Source: Kitasatospora sp. NBC_01266
GTDB lineage: Bacteria > Actinomycetota > Actinomycetes > Streptomycetales > Streptomycetaceae
Reading direction: 5' to 3'
Length of the DNA stretch: 64,000 nucleotides
Assembly: GCF_036242395.1 (NCBI RefSeq)
Contig: NZ_CP108458.1
Coordinates: 3,472,001-3,536,000 of the forward strand
The notes under the pieces are model-generated. The model had not been told where the DNA came from. It made no database searches and saw nothing but the letters and a program-made list of their open reading frames with translations. Positions 51,433 through 60,936 of the stretch are shown here, in pieces. Made by a program: the position numbers and the translations under genes. Position 1 is the stretch's first letter. Each line of letters starts with the position of its first letter.

Positions 51433-51612
51433 TCAGGCCACCGGCCTTGCGGAGCGCAGCCCGCGCAGTCCGACCAGGCCCACCAGGACGCCCAGCGCGA
51501 AGGAGGTGATGGCCAGCGCCAGGTGGATCCAGAAGAAGGCGGTGGGGTGGCTGTGGTCGCCGTTGGTGAAAGCCTGGTGGGCCGAGTCCTGCCAGAGGTT
51601 CTTCACGAAGGT
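51433..51612 (-). pseudogene. 3' part of an interrupted SCO4848-like membrane protein gene
   Basis: Encodes residues from about 25 to the end of the protein: TFVKNLWQDSAHQAFTNGDH and a second membrane helix (FFWIHLALAITSFALGVLVGLVGLRG). It lacks the first helix and start. Joined at AAGGT to the fragment at 60863-60936 it gives one continuous ~83-residue protein, the same length as the complete homologue at 51720. The element inserted within codon ~25. Confidence 0.88.
51608..51612. other. attL core
   Basis: AAGGT. Left flank (TTCTTCACG) is target-gene sequence; right flank (CAAAGAATGG) is element. Serine integrases use a very short core (2 bp exchanged), so the shared 5 bp is the upper bound. 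Confidence 0.82.
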
Positions 51613-51719
51613 CAAAGAATGGAAGACACTCAGGAGGATCTACCACCCCCGGCGGCGGGCCCCGCCGGCAGGGCCCACATACTTGAGGGATCGGCTACCC
51701 CGCTCGAAGGACCACACCC

Positions 51720-51971
51720 ATGAAGCTCACTCGCCCCGTCTCCTGGTTCCTTACGGCGTTCGGCGCGTGGTCTTGGATGGTCTGGGTGACATTCGCCAAG
51801 AACCTCTGGGCCGACTCCGCCCACCAGGCGTTCACCAACGGCGATCACTCCCACCCGACCGCCTTCTTCTGGATCCACCTGGCGCTGACCATCGTGTCGT
51901 TCGCCCTGGGGACGGCCATCGGCGTCATCGGCATCCGGGGCGTTCTCGCCGCCCGACGCGCCGCCCAGTAA
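51720..51971 (+). CDS. Complete copy of the interrupted target gene, carried by the element
   Basis: 83 aa, two membrane helices (about 6-28 and 48-75). It aligns along its whole length with the protein reconstructed from the split gene: MKLTRPVSWFLTAFGAWSW against MKLSRRTSWFLAAFGVWSV, and AHQAFTNGDHSHPTAFFWIH is identical in both. It lies 108 bp inside attL in the opposite orientation to the broken gene, with its own ribosome site (GAAGGA). Best reading: a spare that restores the function lost on integration. The protein's role is unknown. Confidence 0.85.
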   Translation: MKLTRPVSWFLTAFGAWSWMVWVTFAKNLWADSAHQAFTNGDHSHPTAFFWIHLALTIVSFALGTAIGVIGIRGVLAARRAAQ

Positions 51972-52054
51972 CAGAAGCAGCCCCGGCGACGGGCGACGGT
52001 GGCCCGCCCGCCCGTGGGTGACGTACGACGGCCGGGCCGGTCAGCGGGTCCGGG

Positions 52055-53143
52055 TCAGCCGATCACGTGGTCCGGGTCGTCCAGCCAGGCCCGGTGTTCG
52101 CCGGCCACGGTCACGGTCAGGCCGAGCCGGGACAGGTCCGGGCTGTCGTGGCGCCGCCACCACTCGCGGGCGGCTGTCACCTCGTCCCACAGGTTCCGGG
52201 GGCCTGACTGCGAGACGGCATGCTCGCCCTGCCAGTCGGCGAGGCGGCAGTGGGCGTACGACTGCCCGTCCCAGATCTCGAACCGGCCCGTGCCGAACCG
52301 GTCGTAGGAGGCCCAGACGCTCTGCCGAAACAGGCCGGGCATCCGCAGGCCGATCGCGAACGCGGCGTCGGTGCTGTCGGCGACGTCGGCGGGGTCGATC
52401 TCCGATCGGCCGTAACGGACGTCTTCGATCTCGAACTCACCGCTGTCGGGTCGCTGGTCGCGGACCCACATGAACGCCACGTCCGCCACGAACGGGCCGC
52501 TTGCCGACTTGCCATCATCGGCGACCGTGAGCCGCGCCAGTGCCCCGTTGCAGAAGGCGGTGCCGTACGGGGCCAGGATCACCCCGCCGGGTTCGGTCTG
52601 TTCGATCAGAGCAGCGGGCAACCGCTGGACGGCAGCGGTCAGGTGCACCCGCTGGAAGGGCGCCCCGTCGGGGTCGCCGAGCATGCCGTCACCGACCACG
52701 ACCCGGGGCCGCAGGCCGAGCGCGTCGAGCCGGGCTCGGGCCTCGGTGGCGAGCTTGGGGTCCACCTCGATGGTGACGACGTGGTCAGCGCCGAGCCGGT
52801 GGGACAGCAGGCCCGCCGTCCACCCCGTACCTGTGCCCACCTCCAGGACGCGCATGCCGTCGGCAACGGCCAGGTGGCGGAGCATCGTTGCCACAACCGT
52901 GGGCATGGAGCTGGACGAGGACGGGGTCTCGGTCCCCGCGTACAGCTGCGTGACCAACGGCAGGTCCGAGCCGGCCACCTCCGCCCATCGAGCCGGGTTC
53001 GTCTCAATGTCGATCCACTCGCCCCCGTGATAGATCCGCGCCGGGGTGAAGCTGTCACGTGGGAGGGCGCGGAACGCCTCTTCCCAGTCGGCCGACAATG
53101 CCCCCGATTCCCGGAGCCTGTCAGCGAGTTCGTCCCAGGTCAT
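52055..53143 (-). CDS. PIMT-like protein O-methyltransferase
   Basis: 362 aa. SAM-binding motif I VLEVGTGTGWTAGLL (about 99-113) is preceded by the PIMT-type loop SSSMPTVVATMLRHL, and motif GGVILAPYGT follows. Ordinary protein-isoaspartate methyltransferases have about 210-230 aa; this one has some 130 extra C-terminal residues (REWWRRHDSPDLSRLGLTV at the end). Such extended PIMT homologues modify RiPP precursors (aspartate O-methylation, then aspartimide) in graspetide, lanthipeptide-like and imiditide clusters. The peptide gene stops 7 bp before its ATG. Confidence 0.83.
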   Translation of the reverse strand: MTWDELADRLRESGALSADWEEAFRALPRDSFTPARIYHGGEWIDIETNPARWAEVAGSDLPLVTQLYAGTETPSSSSSMPTVVATMLRHLAVADGMRVLEVGTGTGWTAGLLSHRLGADHVVTIEVDPKLATEARARLDALGLRPRVVVGDGMLGDPDGAPFQRVHLTAAVQRLPAALIEQTEPGGVILAPYGTAFCNGALARLTVADDGKSASGPFVADVAFMWVRDQRPDSGEFEIEDVRYGRSEIDPADVADSTDAAFAIGLRMPGLFRQSVWASYDRFGTGRFEIWDGQSYAHCRLADWQGEHAVSQSGPRNLWDEVTAAREWWRRHDSPDLSRLGLTVTVAGEHRAWLDDPDHVIG

Positions 53144-53150
53144 CGGCTGC

Positions 53151-53300
53151 CTACTTCCCGGGCTTGGGCAGGTTGGTGGGCGGCGCGTCCCGCTGCCCGT
53201 CGTGCGGGGCCGTGTCCGGCGAACCGGAGTGGCCGCCGCCCGAGCCTCCGCCCGCCTTGCCGGGCCCGTCGTTGCCGCCGCCTCCGCCGTGCTTTCCCAT
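53151..53300 (-). CDS. Gly-rich 49-residue peptide, candidate methyltransferase substrate
   Basis: Short ORF with a strong ribosome site AAGGAGG 8 nt before its ATG (53300). The Gly/Lys/His N-terminal half (GKHGGGGGNDGPGKAGGG) is followed by a polar Asp/Pro-rich half ending LPKPGK. It has four Asp residues, two of them in Asp-Gly pairs (NDG, HDG), the pair most prone to aspartimide formation. The PIMT-like gene starts 7 bp after its stop. No cysteine, so no lanthionine chemistry. Substrate role is inference. Confidence 0.65.
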   Translation of the reverse strand: MGKHGGGGGNDGPGKAGGGSGGGHSGSPDTAPHDGQRDAPPTNLPKPGK

Positions 53301-53351
53301 GGCTGTGCCTCCTTGTGGTTGACGTGCTGTCCGCGTCTCCGTGCGCTGCCG

Positions 53352-53414
53352 TCACTCCGGCGGCATCGGACCGGGGCCGGGCGGACGGTTGGGGCCGGGC
53401 GTGGGAGTGGTCAT
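53352..53414 (-). CDS. 20-residue Pro/Gly-rich peptide or leader ORF
   Basis: ATG 53414 preceded by GAGGAG 9 nt upstream; begins MTTPTPGPNRPPG and ends MPPE. It lies 51 bp before the 49-residue peptide gene on the same strand. A CACAC/GTGTG hairpin sits directly upstream of its ribosome site. It could be a leader peptide whose proline run stalls ribosomes (control of the downstream genes), a second small product, or chance. Confidence 0.4.
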   Translation of the reverse strand: MTTPTPGPNRPPGPGPMPPE

Positions 53415-53601
53415 GCCGGTGACTCCTCACACTGAGGTGTGCCGGATCACCGGTCGGTGTCCGGGGCATTCGGTGGTGCGGAACCCGCTCCAGTCGGCTG
53501 CCTGCCAGGGATGACGGCCGGGCGGGAGTCAGTTGGGCGGCCAGCAGCGCGGGTGGTTGGCCTCGCGCACCCGGGCGAGCATTCGGCCCGCCGTCGCCGT
53601 T

Positions 53602-53629
53602 CGTCAGCCGTCAGCCGTCAGCCGTCAGC
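53602..53629. repeat. Four tandem CGTCAGC heptamers
   Basis: CGTCAGC x4 (53602-53629), containing the stop codon of the 51-residue ORF. A 7-bp unit is not a multiple of three, so copy-number change shifts the frame at that gene's end. Confidence 0.85.
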
Positions 53630-53766
53630 GGAGCCTTGCTGAACTCCTCCGGGGTCAGCACCGGTCGAGGCCCGGCGGTGCGCTCGCGCGGCCACGGGTG
53701 CGCCTTGATCCACTCGAACGGATCCACCGGGCCCGAGTCGCCTTCGGCCTGCTCGCCGGCACTCAC
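53611..53766 (-). CDS. Small hypothetical protein (51 aa)
   Basis: The GTG at 53766 overlaps the stop of the upstream 62-residue ORF (GTGA), good evidence that both are translated. Acidic start (SAGEQAEGDSGPVDPFEWIK), then AHPWPRERTAGPRPVLTPEEF. Family not recognised. The stop lies in the heptamer repeat, so the original C-terminus may have been longer. Confidence 0.5.
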   Translation of the reverse strand: MSAGEQAEGDSGPVDPFEWIKAHPWPRERTAGPRPVLTPEEFSKAPLTADG

Positions 53767-53951
53767 TCGATGCCCTTGTCAGGGCACTTCTCACTGCCAC
53801 AGGTGCAGAATGGCCACCCGCGCGGCGTACCCCTGATGACCCGTGCGGAGTACGCCGGGTCGTACTCATCCAACGGGTTGCCAACCGGGGCGCGCTGACG
53901 CTGCTCGGCACGGTACTCAGCGAGGGTCCTGCGATGCACGCCCGTCGTCAT
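53763..53951 (-). CDS. Small hypothetical protein with CxC...C motif (62 aa)
   Basis: ATG 53951 follows GGGAGGAG. Basic N-terminus (TTGVHRRTLAEYRAEQRQR), NPLDEYDPAYSARVIRGTPRG, and a C-terminal FCTCGSEKCPDKG that could hold metal. Divergent from the XRE gene across an operator-rich region. Family not recognised; an accessory protein of the XRE/NUDIX locus is possible. Confidence 0.55.
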   Translation of the reverse strand: MTTGVHRRTLAEYRAEQRQRAPVGNPLDEYDPAYSARVIRGTPRGWPFCTCGSEKCPDKGIE

Positions 53952-53967
53952 CTGCCCACTCCTCCCA

Positions 53968-54060
53968 CTTGGTGGATACCAAGGTCCGGCAGTCGCCCAG
54001 GACGGTGGAGCCTCGCACAAAGGACACTTCGGGACGTCCCTTGTGCGGTAGAACGTCCCT
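53968..54060. promoter_or_regulatory. Operator-rich divergent region of the XRE locus
   Basis: CTTGGT-N4-ACCAAG (53968-53983). Then GCACAAaGGAC (54015-54025) mirrored with one mismatch by GTCCcTTGTGC (54036-54046), enclosing the perfect palindrome GGGACGTCCC (54031-54040). ACGTCCCT recurs 19 bp further (54053-54060). Several overlapping symmetric sites between the 62-residue ORF and the XRE gene suggest tight autoregulation, as in a lysogeny switch. Confidence 0.5.
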
Positions 54061-54095
54061 AACAAAGGCCCGGTGTCTGTGGGGAGACAATCGCG

Positions 54096-54839
54096 ATGCC
54101 GAACGAGAGACTGAAAAGCGTTATGACGTCAGGCGGTTGGACGCACGCCGCCTTGGCGGAGAAGGCCGGCGTGGACACCAAGTCGGTTGAACGATGGGCC
54201 AACCAGAACAGGACGCCCCGGCTAGGGACAGCCCGCCTGGCTGCCGAAGCGCTGGGAGAAGACATGTTCGCACTGTGGCCGAGCCTGCGGCAGCCACGCG
54301 CCGCGCGCGCGATAAGTCCTGAACTGGTGGGCCTGTACGAGCAGCGGGCCGACCTGCCGGTCTCCGTCTTCGTGGACCTGCTCGGCAAGGCCACGGAGCG
54401 GATCGACGTCCTGGTCTACGCAGCGGTCTTCCTCCACGAGGCGTACCCCCGGCTCAACGACCTGATCCGTGAGCGCGCCGCCGAGGGTTGCGCGGTCCGG
54501 ATCGCCCTCGGTGATCCCGACAGCGAGAACGTCAGGCAGCGCGGCCAGGAAGAGAAGTTCGGCCACGGCATCGAGTCTCGCTGCAGACTCGCGCTCATGC
54601 ACTACCACCCCCTCGTCGGGACTCCCGGGATCGAGATCCGCACCCACTCGACGACGCTCTACAACAGCCTGTACCGGGCAGACGACCAACTACTCGTGAA
54701 CGCGCACGTGTGGGGCGTCAACGCCTTCGGCGCTCCCGTCTGGCACCTGCGGCGTTCTGGCACGGGGACGCTGTTCGACACCTATGCTGCGAGCTTCGAC
54801 GCGGTGTGGGACACCGCTCGACCGGTTGAGGAGAACTGA
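54096..54839 (+). CDS. XRE-family regulator with C-terminal DUF5919-like domain
   Basis: 247 aa. N-terminal helix-turn-helix (WTHAALAEKAGVDTKSVERWANQNRTPR). The larger C-terminal domain has a phospholipase-D-like layout (IDVLVYAAVFLHEAYPRLNDLIRERAAEGCAVRIALGDPDS, then HSTTLYNSLYRADDQLLVNAHVWG) without a complete HKD motif. Such proteins recur in streptomycetes next to NUDIX hydrolases. ATG 54096 has GGGGAG upstream. It is followed by the NUDIX gene after 4 bp. Confidence 0.8.
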   Translation: MPNERLKSVMTSGGWTHAALAEKAGVDTKSVERWANQNRTPRLGTARLAAEALGEDMFALWPSLRQPRAARAISPELVGLYEQRADLPVSVFVDLLGKATERIDVLVYAAVFLHEAYPRLNDLIRERAAEGCAVRIALGDPDSENVRQRGQEEKFGHGIESRCRLALMHYHPLVGTPGIEIRTHSTTLYNSLYRADDQLLVNAHVWGVNAFGAPVWHLRRSGTGTLFDTYAASFDAVWDTARPVEEN

Positions 54840-54843
54840 TCAC

Positions 54844-55314
54844 GTGGCCCGAACCGAGTACTACGACGATCCCGACGCCCCGAAGCCGAACCGGCTGGTC
54901 GTGGCGGCATCCGCCGTCGTGACCGACGACGCGGGCCGCATCCTGCTGCAACGGCGCACCGACAACGGGCTGTACGCGTTGCCCGGCGGGACGATGGATC
55001 TCGGGGAGTCGCTGCCCGGGACGGCGGTGCGGGAAGTTCAGGAGGAGACCGGACTTGATGTGGAGATCACGGGCCTGGTCGGCACGTACACCGACCCCCG
55101 CCACATCATCGCCTACTCGGACGGCGAGGTCCGCCAGCAGTTCAACGTGTGCTTCACCGCTCGCATCACGGGTGGAGAGCTGAGGATCTCCAACGAATCC
55201 ACCGACCTCCAGTTCGTCGCCCCAGCCGAGATCGAGAACTTGCCGATGCACCACACGCAACGGCTCCGGCTCCAGCACTTCCTGGAGCACCGGGCAACTC
55301 CCCACCTGGGATAG
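54844..55314 (+). CDS. NUDIX hydrolase
   Basis: 156 aa. Complete NUDIX box: GGTMDLGESLPGTAVREVQEETGLDV (Gx5Ex7REUxEExGU). N-terminus ARTEYYDDPDAPKPNRLVVAASAVV is typical of the group paired with XRE regulators. Hydrolyses a nucleoside-diphosphate derivative; substrate unknown. GTG 54844, 4 nt after the XRE stop. Confidence 0.9.
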   Translation: MARTEYYDDPDAPKPNRLVVAASAVVTDDAGRILLQRRTDNGLYALPGGTMDLGESLPGTAVREVQEETGLDVEITGLVGTYTDPRHIIAYSDGEVRQQFNVCFTARITGGELRISNESTDLQFVAPAEIENLPMHHTQRLRLQHFLEHRATPHLG

Positions 55315-55332
55315 GCATCCGTACGATGAAAG

Positions 55333-55368
55333 GCCCCCGCCCGACCCTCGAAAGGGTCAGGCGGGGGC
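55333..55368. terminator. Terminator after the NUDIX gene
   Basis: GCCCCCGCC / GGCGGGGGC outer stem, one C-A mismatch, inner GACCC / GGGTC, loop TCGAAA. It serves the convergent zinc-binding ORF as well. Confidence 0.8.
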
Positions 55369-55378
55369 AGTGAGCTAC

Positions 55379-55594
55379 TCAACGGCTCGGGTAGGGCGCA
55401 CGGTGCCACAGGCCCCGGCTGTCCTGCCAGAGCCCGACTGTGGCGGGCGGCAGGCACCTGCGGGCGCCATGGGGGCCGGTTCGGTGAGCGTCGCCCGCGC
55501 GGGTGCTGGCGAACGTCTCGTGACAGGCCGGGCAGTGCTCGGCGCGCCGGCCGGACCAGCGCCGACCGCACGGCGGGTGAACGACGGTTCGGAT
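55379..55594 (-). pseudogene. FDXHR-type zinc-binding phage protein with no standard start codon
   Basis: 71 codons. CGRRWSGRRAEHCPACHETF, then DAHRTGPHGARRCLPPATVGLW, matches the small zinc-binding proteins common in actinophages. GGAGG (55604-55600, minus) is spaced 5 nt from an ATC codon at 55594; no ATG, GTG or TTG is in frame between there and a much earlier, unrelated stretch. Either AUC is used or the start codon has mutated. Confidence 0.5.
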
Positions 55595-56017
55595 AGGTGC
55601 CTCCGTACTCCTGCCAGGGCAGGGATTTCGCGGCTTGGCGGGCCGTTCCGCAGCCGGTTGGGCTCGGGCCGACTGCTGGCTGACCCACGCGCCCGGGTAG
55701 CAGCGGCACGGGGGTTCCTGCTGACCGGGCGGCCCTTCGCGTACGCGCAGGTGCGCGTCTGCACCCGCGTCGTGCACGCGCGCGTGGGCCACCTGGGCCA
55801 ACCGGCCGAAAGGCCAGGTCACAGCGGGTGACGAAAAATCGGACCGGAAAGTCCCAGACCCGTAGCCAGGCCGAATCCTGCTATCACGTAGCGATCAGGG
55901 GAACCAGGAGGGGAGTCCTCCCCCAGGCCCAGGGGATCCCCGGGGCCAGAGTCGAAGGATCTTAGTGGGACAACTCCCTTTGGTAATAGGTGCATTGACC
56001 AGCTATCGTCCGATGCC
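55595..56017. other. 423-bp region without a convincing gene
   Basis: Several long frames overlap but none has recognisable content. The right part (55830-56000) is AT-richer with short inverted repeats (GGAGG/CCTCC near 55907-55921, GGGA-CAAC-TCCC near 55966-55977) and probably carries the promoter of the next gene. TATCGT at 56004-56009 is a possible -10. Confidence 0.5.
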
Positions 56018-56278
56018 ATGGCAAACACAAACTGGTCAGTCCGCTACCCGGTCGATCCGGCCATCGGCCCCAACACCCCGATCCCCCTCGGGGGCAAGCT
56101 GCTCGGCACCCTCCACGCCGCCCTCTCCGACGCCCCGATCGAGGCGTGGGAGTTCGAGGTGCGCGGCGAGGCAGTAGAGAGCTTCGACGACTTCCAGCGA
56201 CTCATCAACGAGGCAGAGAGCGTCCAGTACGGCGAGTTCGTCGCGCGCGCGAACGGCATCGTCGTCGAGTCCAGCTGA
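56018..56278 (+). CDS. Hypothetical protein (86 aa)
   Basis: Starts ANTNWSVRYPVDPAIGPNTP; acidic C-terminal half (WEFEVRGEAVESFDDFQRLINEAESVQYGEF). No family recognised. ATG 56018 lies 8 nt after TATCGT and has no ribosome site, suggesting leaderless expression. Its 3' end overlaps the convergent HNH frame by about 70 bp. Confidence 0.5.
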   Translation: MANTNWSVRYPVDPAIGPNTPIPLGGKLLGTLHAALSDAPIEAWEFEVRGEAVESFDDFQRLINEAESVQYGEFVARANGIVVESS

Positions 56279-56798
56279 TAGAGGGCCCAGTGGCCGCGGG
56301 GGCGCACTGGAGTAACCTTCTCGTTGGCTTTGCGCCGCGTGCAGGACGGACACAGATCCAGCGAGGAAGCGGAAAGTACGACGAGAACCCGCACCCCCGC
56401 CACCCTGTGCAGCCCGGGTGCGTCGGGCGCTCGCGCAGCCGTGACCAGCGGCCACCGGCCTGCCGGTCGGCGTCGCTGCCCGCGCGTCCCTCGCGCCCGG
56501 ACTTCACCGAGTGGTGACAGCCGCACAGGGCTTGCAAGTTGGCCACGTCGTGGTTGTCGCCGGGGTTGATGTGGTCGCAGTCCGCTGCCAGTTCGGGGCA
56601 GCGGTCGCCGATGTCAGTGCGTATCCACTGGTACCGCCAGCCGGCGCGGTCCATCACGAACCGTCGTCGGGCGGGCCAGCCACGCGGTAGGCGCTTGGCT
56701 CGTTCACTGCCTTGCCAGTTGGGCACTCGGCCCCACCACCTTCGGTAGGCCAGCCACACCAGCGCGACCACCAGGACCAGCACCAGGTCCACGCTCAC
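56205..56798 (-). CDS. HNH endonuclease with N-terminal membrane segment
   Basis: About 197 aa. An N-terminal hydrophobic helix (VDLVLVLVVALVWLAYRRWW) precedes a phage-type HNH domain: PRGWPARRRFVMDRAGWRYQWIRTDIGDRCPELAADCDHINPGDNHDVANLQALCGCHHSVKSG, in which Asp-His, Asn and His-His are in place. Phage HNH proteins of this kind usually stop soon after the HHxxK segment; here the frame continues with Arg/Cys-rich sequence, so the C-terminus may be frameshifted. GTG 56798 is the proposed start. Confidence 0.68.
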   Translation of the reverse strand: MSVDLVLVLVVALVWLAYRRWWGRVPNWQGSERAKRLPRGWPARRRFVMDRAGWRYQWIRTDIGDRCPELAADCDHINPGDNHDVANLQALCGCHHSVKSGREGRAGSDADRQAGGRWSRLRERPTHPGCTGWRGCGFSSYFPLPRWICVRPARGAKPTRRLLQCAPAATGPSISWTRRRCRSRARRTRRTGRSLPR

Positions 56799-56910
56799 CA
56801 CGTCCCAGCCGTCCGCCCGGTGCGGCCCGTCGTGGTGCACCACGGTGCGCTGATGACCGGGACGACCACGGGGTGAGGCACGACCACAACAGGCGGTGCA
56901 GGATCACCTG

Positions 56911-57681
56911 TCAGCTGAGCCAGTCCTCACCCGTGGTCGCCGAGGGCGGACCCGCAGTCGGATCATGAACGGTGTCCGGGTCCGCCGACGGATCGAGTCG
57001 GCCAGGCAGGCCGCCTGTGTAGTCCCTGGCGTACTCCAGCCGGTCGGTGATCAAGCGGTCCAGTGCCCTCCGGTCTGCTGCCCAGTTGATGCCGCCGCGC
57101 GGAGCCATGATCCGCCACTGCCGTTCGTTCGCCTGCCATGGATTGCCAAGATCCTCGCCAAGGCCCTCGACGGCATCGGCCAATGACGCCAACTCATCGA
57201 TCAGAGAAGCCAGTTGCCTAGCCAGATTCAGAGCTTCGGTGCGCTTCCCCTCCGCAGTGACGCAGATGTCCGCCCGCCACTTCGGCCGAGCGCTGATCGA
57301 CGTCGTCCGCACGGCTCCGGCGGCCTCGGCGGCAACCTGATAGACGGCCAGTTGGGCGCGCTCCGCCTCGGCGAGCTTGGACATCAGCGGACCCCTGCTG
57401 GTCGCCTTCGGGATCGGCTTGCCCTCACGGACAGCAGCCTTGGCCGCCCACGCGTCCTTGTCGTCAAGGGCCGCCAGGTCTGCGCGCACTCGATCAACTG
57501 CGTCGTCGCTGTCCGCCCGACGCCCGTGCAGTTCGTCCATGCGGGCCAGGGCGTCGCGCACTCTCGCTGGCGTGCAGACGTAGGCATAACCAGGGACAGC
57601 CCGGGAGGCGATCTCGTACAGGCGCTCAAGCTGCTCGGTGCGCTGCTGCTCCGGCATCAGGTTCTCGGTCATCCGATTCAC
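56911..57681 (-). CDS. Phage-like hypothetical protein (256 aa)
   Basis: Mostly helical and charged, with a coiled-coil-like middle (EALNLARQLASLIDELASLADAVEGL) and a disordered C-terminus. The GTG at 57681 overlaps the stop of the preceding gene (GTGA). No family recognised; the neighbours suggest a prophage gene. Confidence 0.6.
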   Translation of the reverse strand: MNRMTENLMPEQQRTEQLERLYEIASRAVPGYAYVCTPARVRDALARMDELHGRRADSDDAVDRVRADLAALDDKDAWAAKAAVREGKPIPKATSRGPLMSKLAEAERAQLAVYQVAAEAAGAVRTTSISARPKWRADICVTAEGKRTEALNLARQLASLIDELASLADAVEGLGEDLGNPWQANERQWRIMAPRGGINWAADRRALDRLITDRLEYARDYTGGLPGRLDPSADPDTVHDPTAGPPSATTGEDWLS

Positions 57682-58037
57682 CCCGCCAGCCGGCGAGCGA
57701 GCACCGAGGCCGCCAGCTTCATGGGGTCGATGTCCAGGGTCGGGGGCGGATCAACCGGCCCGCCGCTGGGAAGCAGCGACTTGGGGCGGGTGTTCAAGTT
57801 GGCAGGCATGGCCTTGATCGTTTCAATAAGCCGGTCAGCGTCCGCCCGGATCTCTGCCTCAGTGCTGCCGTTCAGCCGGTCGGCCAGGCCCAGCGGAAGA
57901 CCGGAAGTCTTCGCAATCGCCTCTCGGACGGCAGCGAGTCCCGCCGCGCGCTTGTCCCGAGCGCCGTCCGAGCTGGCCTCCCCGACCTCCGACACGGCTT
58001 CCCGTACTGCATTCTTCACGAATTCCCTGCGGTCCAT
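57678..58037 (-). CDS. Small phage-like protein with scaffold-type C-terminal motif
   Basis: 119 aa. DRREFVKNAVREAVSEVGEA at the N-terminus. SGLPLGLADRLNGSTEAEIRADADRLIETIK resembles the conserved segment (xxLxGxTxxELxADA) seen in scaffolding-like proteins of actinophages. A lone protein of this type without capsid genes points to prophage decay or to interference with a helper phage; both are inference. ATG 58037 has GAGG upstream. Confidence 0.55.
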   Translation of the reverse strand: MDRREFVKNAVREAVSEVGEASSDGARDKRAAGLAAVREAIAKTSGLPLGLADRLNGSTEAEIRADADRLIETIKAMPANLNTRPKSLLPSGGPVDPPPTLDIDPMKLAASVLARRLAG

Positions 58038-58343
58038 AGCAATACCTCTTTCACGTAGTTGAGGCGCACACGCAGGCCGGAACCCAAAACGGCCCCGCCT
58101 TGCCGAGTGCACGCACGTCCGAGACCGCCGAATGCCTCGGGAAAGCAGCGCACCCGACAGGCGGGGCGGACCGACAGGAAACACGCTGGCTGCCGGAGCA
58201 CTATGAAGTTGTTGTTGTCGGGGCTGTTCGACTCGCTCCCGTTTGAGGCACACCCGGCGCCACAGAAAGATTAATGGGGGGTGGTAAAGAAGTCGGCGCG
58301 TGCGCCCGGTTCACAGATGCAGTCTGCGAACCGGGCCGCTCGG
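58038..58343. other. 306-bp gap with minus-strand terminator
   Basis: GCCCGGTTC (58304-58312) / GAACCGGGC (58328-58336) forms a stem, followed on the minus strand by CTTCTTTACC, so it should end the zinc-ribbon transcript. The remainder (58038-58300), upstream of the scaffold-like gene, shows no gene. Confidence 0.6.
58271..58289. repeat. Left copy of a 19-bp direct repeat around the zinc-ribbon gene
   Basis: TTAATGGGGGGTGGTAAAG. The partner TTAACGGGGGGTGGTCAAG lies at 58898-58916, two mismatches, same orientation. On the minus str. Confidence 0.7.
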
Positions 58344-58730
58344 CTAGACCGCGACAACCTCCAGCACGGCGGCGCGCTTCCGCTGCCGGTACGACTTTTG
58401 GCGGTGGGCGTTGGAGCAGTAGCTCCGCGCCCGCCCGACGCCGTCCCATCCGGCATTATTCCCGCAGCCTTCCAGCTGACAGCTGGCTTCCCAGCGAGCT
58501 TCCTCCGCAAGTTGTCGCGCGCCTCTGGCTGTGCAGTCCTCGCACCATGCACCGTGACCGTTGGCAAAGTCAGCTGGCGTGCCGCACTTGTCGCAGGGGC
58601 GCCCCCGCCAACCGGCCGGGCGAGTGTCGGCGTGCTTAAGTGCCTGCCGACAGGCGTTCGAGCAGACGGCGCGCTGGCGTCCGGTCAGCGACTTCTCGCA
58701 CCAGTTACAGGCAGTTCCAAAGGTGAACAG
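58344..58730 (-). CDS. Cysteine-rich multi-zinc-ribbon protein, likely CTG start
   Basis: 128 codons of unbroken, clearly protein-like sequence: CNWCEKSLTGRQRAVCSNAC, CDKCGTPADFANGHGAWCEDC, CQLEGCGNNAG, YCSNAHRQKSYRQRKR. At least four CxxC-type pairs suggest several zinc-binding knuckles and a basic end suited to nucleic acid. No ATG/GTG/TTG precedes the first motif; CTG 58730 lies 5 nt after AGGAG, so CTG initiation is proposed. The DNA is less GC-rich than the rest. Flanked by a 19-bp direct repeat. Confidence 0.68.
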   Translation of the reverse strand: MFTFGTACNWCEKSLTGRQRAVCSNACRQALKHADTRPAGWRGRPCDKCGTPADFANGHGAWCEDCTARGARQLAEEARWEASCQLEGCGNNAGWDGVGRARSYCSNAHRQKSYRQRKRAAVLEVVAV

Positions 58731-58897
58731 ATCAGCTCCTCTCGGGTCCTGTTACAAAAAGCGACTGGCAGTGACAGGGGTTTCCGTTTTTCCCTACAGA
58801 GCTTTCTAGGGACTTGTATAGTTGGACTGAGTTCCAGGTACAGCACTAAAATTATTCATAACAACCCTGCTCTCCGTAGCGGCTTCGACCATTTGAG

Positions 58898-58916
58898 TTA
58901 ACGGGGGGTGGTCAAG
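58898..58916. repeat. Right copy of the 19-bp direct repeat
   Basis: TTAACGGGGGGTGGTCAAG, partner of 58271-58289. Read on the minus strand it begins CTTGACCACCCCCC, where TTGACC resembles a -35 element. Between it and the zinc-ribbon gene lies the most AT-rich DNA of the window (58735-58900), a probable promoter or control region. Confidence 0.7.
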
Positions 58917-58968
58917 GATCCCGCCCGCGCCGTCAGCCCCGGCGGTCAGCGGGCCTCGGATACAACTA

Positions 58969-59009
58969 CGGCCCGAATCACAGAGACAGACTCTCTGCGA
59001 TTCGGGCCG
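58969..59009 (-). terminator. Terminator of the integrase gene
   Basis: CGGCCCGAATC (58969-58979) / GATTCGGGCCG (58999-59009), 11-bp perfect stem, with an inner AGAGA/TCTCT stem after a 2x2 internal loop, 15 bp beyond the integrase stop. Confidence 0.8.
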
Positions 59010-59023
59010 ATTCCGGCTACTCG

Positions 59024-60790
59024 TCAGACGATGACCAACGGCCGGTTGTGCCCAGTGATGTGCGCCAGTTCCTCAGCCGTGGGCGTCGGCCGCCAGTCCA
59101 GCGTCACCCGGTCGGCAACGGGGATGACCGACCGGTCAGCGCGCCGTCCGGGGCCCACCGCCACACCGGATAGAAACAGGTTGAGGAACTGCCGACGCTT
59201 GACGGTGTCCCAGCCCGCCCACGGGGACTCCGGCCCCAGCGGGTCTTCCCCAGCGGCGAACCACTCCACCGGAACCCGCACGGCTCGGGCCGACCTGTCG
59301 TCCAACTCCCGCATGCGCTCAAGGCACTTCTCCTCGTACGCCTGGTACTGCAACATCGTCCCCCGGAACGCCGCCGATCCCCGTTCCCCCTTGTAGATGC
59401 CCGCCTTCCGGTCCTCGTACAGCTCCGCGATGGACTGCCGGACGTGCTCAAGGTGGGCCTGCGTCTCGGCACGCTCGCTCTCGACCCCGGCAAGGTCCTC
59501 TTGCTCCGCGAACCGTGCGGCAGCAGCCACCAGCCATGCCTGGTCGTCCGGGTCGGACAGGTCGGCACTGCTGATCTTCGCCCATACCCGGCGGGCAACG
59601 TGGTCATCAAGGTGCACGATCTGCACCGACAGGCCGCCGTGCCCGACGGGGTTCGCGCACATGTAGTAGCGCCCGCTCTTGCCCATCGAGCCCTCGCACG
59701 TGGCGCAGCGGGAGAACTTCCAGCCGGACAGCAGCGACGGCACGCTGTTCTCATACTGCCGCTCGGCGAGACCGCGCTGACCGATCTTCTCCTGGAGCTC
59801 CAGCCACGTCTGTCCCGGGATGATGCCCTGGTGCGGCGTCAACGGGGTGCCCGACTCATCCCGGGCGATGACGTTGGCCAAGGTTCCCTTGGGGCCCTTC
59901 GGGACACGCACCGAGGCGAACCCGCCGATGCACGGGTGCGTGAGGATGTGACGCACGGTCTGAGCGCGCCAGATGATCCCGGTTCGCTGCCGGCCGGGGA
60001 ACCCGCGCTCCTGGACCGCCTTCTTGCGTGCCTCGGTGTTCCGCTGGGTCGTGGTGCCGGGGGCGGGTGTGCCCTCCTTGTTCATGGTCGCCGCGATGCG
60101 GTTGTAGGCGTAGCCCTTGAAGGCGAGGTCAACCAGCTTCCGGACCACGTCGGCGTAGGCCATCTCCGCTTCGTCCCAGTGGTCCTCGTTGGGCTCAAGC
60201 GTGGTGACGGTCAGCTTCCCGATCACCTCCCGGCGGGCCTTCATACCGAAGGGCGGAGTGGAGGAGTGCCGCCCGCCAACGGCCTGGATCTCCTCCTTCG
60301 CTCCGGCGGTGCGGGCCGCCTTGATGTCGGAGTCCTGTTTGGCGAGCGCGGCGATCAGCGCGAAGATCGCCTCCCCGACGGGGTTGCTGGTGTCGAGGAA
60401 CGGCTCCTGGACGCTGACGAGTCGCACGCCGTACTCGCGCAACTTCTTGTCGATCGTCATGGCCTCGTAGGCGCCCTGCCTGGTGAGGCGCGAGAGTTCG
60501 TTGATGACGATGACGTCCAATTCCCCGCGTTCGACGGAGCGCATCATCTCTTCGAAGTCCGGCCGGACGACCTTCGGGTCCCACCCCGACTTCCCCACAT
60601 CCTTGTACTCCCGGACCACCTGCCACTTACTTGTGGCACGGGCGGCGACCAGCGCGTGACCGGCACTCAGTTGAGCCTCGGGCGAAGCCTCGGAGGCGTC
60701 TGGGCGCTTGCTGGACTGGCGGGCGTACAGCCCCACCCGGACGACGTCCAGTTGGTCCGAGGGGATGTCCGGGGCGAGGAAGGTTGCCAT
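59024..60790 (-). CDS. int: Large serine integrase, phiBT1-like
   Basis: 588 aa. Resolvase-type catalytic domain (about 16-165) with nucleophile Ser26 in YARQSS; ELSRLTR and ALAKQDSD fit the family. Recombinase domain (about 190-300), zinc ribbon (FSRCATCEGSMGKSGRYYMCANPVGHGG) and a coiled-coil segment (SERAETQAHLEHVRQSIAEL) follow. From memory the protein is closely similar to phiBT1 integrase from its first residues (ATFLAPDIPSDQLDVVRV) on, which also sets ATG 60790 rather than GTG 60808 as start. It lies 73 bp from attR. No directionality factor is recognised. Confidence 0.94.
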   Translation of the reverse strand: MATFLAPDIPSDQLDVVRVGLYARQSSKRPDASEASPEAQLSAGHALVAARATSKWQVVREYKDVGKSGWDPKVVRPDFEEMMRSVERGELDVIVINELSRLTRQGAYEAMTIDKKLREYGVRLVSVQEPFLDTSNPVGEAIFALIAALAKQDSDIKAARTAGAKEEIQAVGGRHSSTPPFGMKARREVIGKLTVTTLEPNEDHWDEAEMAYADVVRKLVDLAFKGYAYNRIAATMNKEGTPAPGTTTQRNTEARKKAVQERGFPGRQRTGIIWRAQTVRHILTHPCIGGFASVRVPKGPKGTLANVIARDESGTPLTPHQGIIPGQTWLELQEKIGQRGLAERQYENSVPSLLSGWKFSRCATCEGSMGKSGRYYMCANPVGHGGLSVQIVHLDDHVARRVWAKISSADLSDPDDQAWLVAAAARFAEQEDLAGVESERAETQAHLEHVRQSIAELYEDRKAGIYKGERGSAAFRGTMLQYQAYEEKCLERMRELDDRSARAVRVPVEWFAAGEDPLGPESPWAGWDTVKRRQFLNLFLSGVAVGPGRRADRSVIPVADRVTLDWRPTPTAEELAHITGHNRPLVIV

Positions 60791-60862
60791 GTTCTGAGCT
60801 TGCCGCACCGTCTGACCTGCGCTTTCCGCTTTGCCTAAGCTTTGCTAGGTACCTTCTCATCA

Positions 60863-60867
60863 AAGGT
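60863..60867. other. attR core
   Basis: AAGGT. Left flank (CTTCTCATCA) is element; right flank (GGTCCAGATGATC) is target-gene sequence and matches what I recall of the right half of phiBT1 attB. Two GCAAAGC copies lie in the element arm (60823-60846, minus strand). Confidence 0.82.
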
Positions 60868-60936
60868 GGTCCAGATGATCACGGACCAGACGCCGAAGGC
60901 GGCGAGGAACCAGGAGGTACGGCGGCTGAGCTTCAT
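60863..60936 (-). pseudogene. 5' part of the interrupted SCO4848-like gene
   Basis: Start ATG 60936; encodes MKLSRRTSWFLAAFGVWSV and the rest of the first membrane helix up to TTF, where element DNA begins. Read-through adds about nine foreign codons to a TAG at 60837-60835. With 51433-51612 it rebuilds the full gene. Confidence 0.88.

Follow-up and report, generated by a model that had tools for sequence, protein, structure and literature searches.

In the 64,000-nucleotide stretch of Kitasatospora DNA analyzed here (the window), an integrated element splits a SCO4848-family membrane-protein gene and brings with it a complete spare copy of the same gene. In other genomes this spare is kept through the decay of the element, and it can end as the sole SCO4848 gene of the chromosome. 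The recurrence of the arrangement, the intact reading frames, the constraint on the sequence, the existence of two lineages and the replacement of the host gene are all shown by the data presented below.

The element spans positions 51611-60866 of the window, that is about 9.26 kb (9.3 kb), and its features are listed in Table 1. The open reading frame of the spare matches the NCBIfam model NF046117, “SCO4848 family membrane protein” (E 9.7e-26, 89.6 bits for a cut-off of 45), and retains the conserved residues of the family. Its ATG sits 108 bp inward of attL, and its orientation is opposite to that of the native gene, as verified with both sdhB and the D-Ala-D-Ala carboxypeptidase gene as references. 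Hence, the original prediction of an intact 83-residue homologue of the interrupted protein, inversely oriented, with its own ribosome site and 108 bp inside attL, held in all its parts. Searching the whole 8.57-Mb assembly at E <= 0.001 returns the spare and the two halves of the interrupted host gene, and no other SCO4848 match. The crossover falls within the Thr24 codon, at its GT (read as AC on the coding strand), so that integration inside SCO4848 with a GT crossover is confirmed. The att core is only 5 bp long and the target gene is not rebuilt at the junctions; instead, a full replacement gene is found on the element. No tRNA gene is present in the 64-kb window and the target is a protein gene of the NF046117 family. 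No consensus sigma-70 promoter or terminator was found near the spare. Expression from its own leader and restoration of function are inferences, in the absence of expression or complementation data.

Table 1. Positions, strands and supporting evidence for the features of the element and of the interrupted gene in the window.
Feature	Position	Strand	Evidence or remark
3' part of the interrupted host SCO4848-family gene	51433..51610	-	73% aa identity to the spare over residues 23-82; NF046117 52.5 bits
attL core AAGGT	51608..51612	.	common to attR
CATACT, possible -10 element of the spare	51678..51683	+	ATACT 40-46 nt before the start in 25/27 copies
GAAGGA, ribosome-binding site of the spare	51706..51711	+	sequence inspection; RBS-like motif in 27/27 copies
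Spare SCO4848-family gene, 83 aa, intact	51720..51971	+	ORF list, NF046117 and genome search
attB-like stretch within the spare	51783..51803	+	TGGGTGACATTCGCCAAGAAC
Cargo: PCMT-like methyltransferase	52055..53143	-	PF01135; phrog_13505
Cargo: helix-turn-helix regulator with DUF5919-like part	54096..54839	+	domain search
Cargo: NUDIX hydrolase	54784..55314	+	domain search
Cargo: protein with phage FDXHR zinc-binding domain	55379..55822	-	PF24071
Large serine integrase, phiBT1 type	59024..60808	-	51.4% identical to the phiBT1 integrase; adjoins attR
attR core AAGGT	60863..60867	.	common to attL
5' part of the interrupted host SCO4848-family gene	60868..60936	-	55% aa identity to the spare over residues 1-29

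The integrase of the element carries the Resolvase (PF00239) and Recombinase (PF07508) domains within one large protein devoid of inner stops; its recombination activity is inferred from sequence alone. The phiBT1 integrase itself is known to target SCO4848 (PMC5937489). No phage head, tail or packaging gene was seen among the window open reading frames scanned, a scan that did not cover all of them. The same genome also contains a second large serine recombinase (G000:C1:2713524-2715251), 40% identical to that of the element and interrupted by one in-frame TGA.

The arrangement is not restricted to the window. Scanning the contigs of named genomes with an integrase alignment gave 20 loci. At three of them, encoding integrases 39-40% identical, SCO4848 is not nearby; the other 17 lie at SCO4848, part of them being merely integrase remnants. 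A phiBT1-type integrase, or what is left of one, lies at SCO4848 in 17 named Streptomyces genomes, and in all 17 the single full-length SCO4848 gene is the spare; the comparison called for in the original prediction thus recovers the same organization. The host gene halves are visible in 13 of these genomes. The smallest form seen, in S. filamentosus, consists of the integrase and the spare only, with about 2.2 kb between the host halves; in S. natalensis, about 41 kb separate these halves and the element has terminase, portal, protease, head and tail genes. In S. wedmorensis, the spare and the integrase are on separate contigs and the spare is adjacent to the host 3' half. In every case that can be checked from integrase traces or host halves, and in two integrase lineages, the spare adjoins attP in the same orientation.

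The spare outlives the element. Leaving out S. wedmorensis and a copy on a viral contig (L163, see below), 27 spares or spare-type genes were examined and all are intact open reading frames of 76-90 aa. Twelve are paired with an integrase that spans its full length without inner stops. For the other 15, the integrase is broken or missing; other traces (integrase or host halves) remain in 11 of them (G055, G307, G374, G355, G218, G407, G463, G414, SKN60, WM6378, and R302), with only 0.7 kb left between the host halves in G218. In the last four (G020, G040, G292, and G313), the spare-type gene stands alone, flipped relative to the native orientation, and tblastn detected neither an element nor a native gene. 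Uncorrected pN/pS values of the copies are 0.29 in the Streptomyces-like genus (that of genome G211) and 0.34 in the genus of the window, the corresponding values for native genes being 0.26 and 0.48.

Orientation was surveyed by taking the best SCO4848 match of each genome relative to sdhB, with the D-Ala-D-Ala carboxypeptidase gene as a second reference. All 70 genomes of the window genus have the gene, its strand being opposite that of sdhB in 65 and identical to it in five (the window, G041, G055, G020, and G040). In the Streptomyces-like genus, 140 of 145 genomes have it, none being matched in the other five at E <= 1e-6; 17 of the 140 were dropped, SCO4848 and sdhB being on different contigs. 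The gene is opposite to sdhB in 116 of the remaining 123 genomes and on the same strand in seven. By the second reference, five of these seven are flipped (G211, G407, G463, G414, and G292), G441 is native and G462 is unresolved. No second SCO4848 copy was found in the native-orientation genomes of either survey (0/65 and 0/116). Outside both surveys, genome G255 has an intact native gene and, far away, a partial second SCO4848-like match (L090, G255:C1:5212078-5212248, minus strand) that begins near the crossover position and resembles a host 3' half.

The original prediction would have been refuted by a plus-strand gene in strains lacking the element, and this condition is formally met by G020, G040, G292, and G313. 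However, the native gene is missing there, the flipped genes group with element copies, and native-orientation genomes have no second copy; together, these observations point to a replacement derived from the element rather than to a native paralogue.

The phylogeny of host and element copies supports this view. A codon tree (treekit; FastTree was also run) was built from 85 genes, 27 spares or flipped genes and 58 natives. The 22 copies of the Streptomyces-like genus fall on one side of a branch (support 87/88) and the five copies of the window genus on another branch (92/71), with two state changes in all; the flipped genes are placed with the element copies, in two lineages. Forcing G020 and G040 with natives of their own genus is rejected (p 0.03), as is forcing G292 and G313 with natives of theirs (p 0.002). 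A single origin of all spares, imposed as one clade, was also tried and rejected (p 0.012). All three tests are weakened by the fact that the groups were named after inspection of the tree. A quick integrase tree, with 14 rows having a spare vs. nine without (phiBT1 and eight viral contigs), also needs two changes. Since the two spare lineages match two integrase lineages, two independent gains are the simplest reading.

The leaders point the same way. In 25 of the 27 copies, ATACT is located 40-46 nt upstream of the start, and all 27 have a motif resembling a ribosome-binding site. The natives of the window genus resemble the copies (ATACT in 20/20, at a median of 44.5 nt; RBS-like motif in 19/20). 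Among 33 natives of the Streptomyces-like genus, 31 have ATACT, at a median of 11 nt upstream of the start, and four have an RBS-like motif. Natives of that genus therefore look leaderless, unlike those of the window genus and unlike the spares.

SCO4848 has no match in 50,697 phage records, and the plasmid search gave one weak match only (Arthrobacter, 33.8%). Viral contigs gave no match with the window copy alone as query; with an alignment (A2), three loci were recovered. The first (L163) occupies the last 240 bases of a 43-kb viral contig (IMGVR_UViG_2739367648_000002), whose very end coincides with the start codon of an intact copy of SCO4848; this copy has the spare-type base at attB position +11, and a related integrase was not found in that record. 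The second (L164) is a partial SCO4848 gene, and the third (L165) is on a viral contig whose integrase is identical to that of S. natalensis. No spare was detected in phiBT1 and in eight viral contigs with related integrases, although viral records may be fragments. Thus, the spare is not required for integration as such.

Whether the spare can itself serve as attB is less clear. The attB-like stretch of the spare did not occur in 100 shuffles, and the GT crossover dinucleotide is retained. At position +11 on the GT strand (base 51779 in the window spare), all 27 copies have C, whereas natives have G in 33/33 cases in the Streptomyces-like genus and in 17/20 in the window genus, the other three having C. 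In the former genus, the valine codon at +11 is GTG in 17/17 copies and GTC in 13/13 natives. In phiBT1 pseudo-attB sites, TTC at motif positions 5-7 is mirrored by GAA at positions 28-30, in the zinc-ribbon region (PMC5937489). By our own numbering, +11 is motif position 28, which is not among the most conserved single positions of that study, and the phiBT1 integrase is tolerant of site variation (PMC5937489). At used sites, 14 of 15 host 5' halves have G at +11. The exception (L115), a viral contig for which the presence of a spare is unknown, has C, and this lowers the odds of the bolder reading given below. Recoding of the entire attB region was also considered and is only weakly supported, +11 being the only clean difference. 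Indeed, in the Streptomyces-like genus (three natives left out), the divergence of the 60-bp attB window is reached by 3 of 59 sliding windows, but that of the 36-bp attB window by 14 of 67; the counts are 27/63 and 18/71 in the window genus. If the spare held a functional attB, some 70 bp within it and next to attP, the element could recombine with itself, so that a change of this kind would presumably be favored. Of the two original possibilities, that the attB-like stretch accepts or resists further integrations, resistance fits the sequence slightly better, with L115 as a counter-example. In the absence of recombination data, resistance conferred by C at +11 is no more than a possibility, suggested by the published half-site motif.

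In the mechanism that we propose, the serine integrase would recombine attP with the attB located in SCO4848, thereby breaking the small membrane-protein gene. The complete spare, lying with its own leader across attP and pointing away from it, would preserve the host function once integration has occurred. With the host gene broken, selection would then hold on to the spare while the remaining element decays, until the only SCO4848 of the host is the element copy, flipped at the old locus. Such an insert-and-rescue unit is likely the best explanation of the data, although it is only inferred that the spare is expressed, complements the broken gene, affects fitness and is less active as attB. 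The original suggestion that the spare could remove the fitness cost of insertion is in line with its retention, without any data on complementation or fitness; likewise, dependence of the host on the element is an inference. A bolder reading would be that two branches of phiBT1-type integrases independently acquired a copy of the protein gene that they disrupt, in a form that can no longer act as attB. This would make a natural insert-and-rescue module, with a host depending on element DNA and repeated in-place, flipped replacement of a conserved gene. We see as many reasons to doubt this reading as to accept it.

Two sets of observations bear on how much the host needs SCO4848. First, the germination delay following phiBT1 insertion was attributed to the neighboring SCO4849, not to SCO4848 (PMC7460540). 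This is a point against rescue, and the spare would not cure a polar effect. Second, SCO4848 is not strictly needed by the host, being absent in some genomes. Eight of 394 family genomes lack a match at E <= 0.001 (G148, G237, G372, G165, G077, G090, G101, and G104), and at E <= 1 only weak matches appear, in five of them; these 394 genomes do not enter the orientation counts. In G332, the native-orientation gene (L093, G332:C18:102562-102705, plus strand) matches only residues 1-51, with a TAG, and no spare was found; loss of SCO4848 seems to be tolerated there.

Other explanations survive less well. The spare could be less a plain rescue copy than a modified allele of benefit to the element, either through resistance to later elements or through a change in membrane function. 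The base at +11, which differs from that of most natives in 27/27 copies, and the existence of viral competitors with related integrases speak for it. Nevertheless, integration breaks attB anyway, the conserved residues are kept with the NF046117 cut-off met, and the spare can be the sole copy, which requires basic function; we consider this explanation very unlikely. Equally improbable is a chance capture of the host gene, which would then travel as passive cargo without effect on integration. Phages of the phiBT1 type without the copy do exist and the integrase does not need it. However, the copy adjoins attP in constant orientation wherever this can be checked, in two integrase lineages, and it outlives the integrase. 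Finally, the element might merely have landed beside a plus-strand gene that was already there, as a native paralogue or through a local inversion. The four genomes with such a gene and no detectable element could suggest this, but it is very improbable and already contradicted by the absence of second copies in 65 and 116 native-orientation genomes, the grouping of flipped genes with element copies, the different leader of natives in the Streptomyces-like genus, and the integrase or host-half traces in 11 of the 15 copies lacking an intact integrase.

The insert-and-rescue reading widens the “bring your own replacement” principle, known from tRNAs, so that it covers an entire protein-coding gene as well as serine integrases. 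It makes a long-term outcome visible, in which a mobile element permanently swaps out a widely conserved chromosomal gene, and it explains flipped SCO4848 genes that would otherwise be odd. It also gives a design hint for low-cost integration vectors at the much-used phiBT1 site and renders the role of SCO4848 testable, as most strains retain the gene though laboratory insertions into it are tolerated.

We found no description of a protein-gene version of this strategy in the literature searched, which misses most subscription papers, and several known systems are close to it. The cost of insertion is avoided by islands and phages that repair the 3' end of the tRNA or protein gene they enter; part of that gene is re-formed at the junction, whereas the 5-bp core of the present element rebuilds nothing. 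Cleave-and-Rescue gene drives destroy a host gene while providing a recoded version intended to be spared by the agent that does the damage. They are synthetic, nuclease-based and used in animals and plants; the present element is natural and acts by insertion, and resistance of its copy is not shown. Phage phiBT1 (AJ550940.2) and its vectors share the target gene, the GT crossover in the Thr24 codon and an integrase 51.4% identical, but the phage carries no SCO4848 copy. The pNG1-4 vectors (PMC7460540) use the phiBT1 site and carry a gene that undoes the harm of integration; they are man-made, and the gene supplied is SCO4849 under the SCO4848 promoter. Finally, the closest precedent is the tRNA-dependent lysogeny of actinobacteriophages (PMC10865867), in which integration also breaks a host gene that is not restored at the att junctions, and a whole replacement gene comes with the element. 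That system targets a tRNA gene by means of a tyrosine recombinase, vs. a protein gene and a serine recombinase here, so that the present element departs from it on both points. The necessity of the replacement tRNA gene was shown by experiment (PMC10865867), whereas a need for the spare in host survival is inferred only from its retention. In addition, most of the elements described here are small islands, not phages, and their spare replaces the host gene for good.
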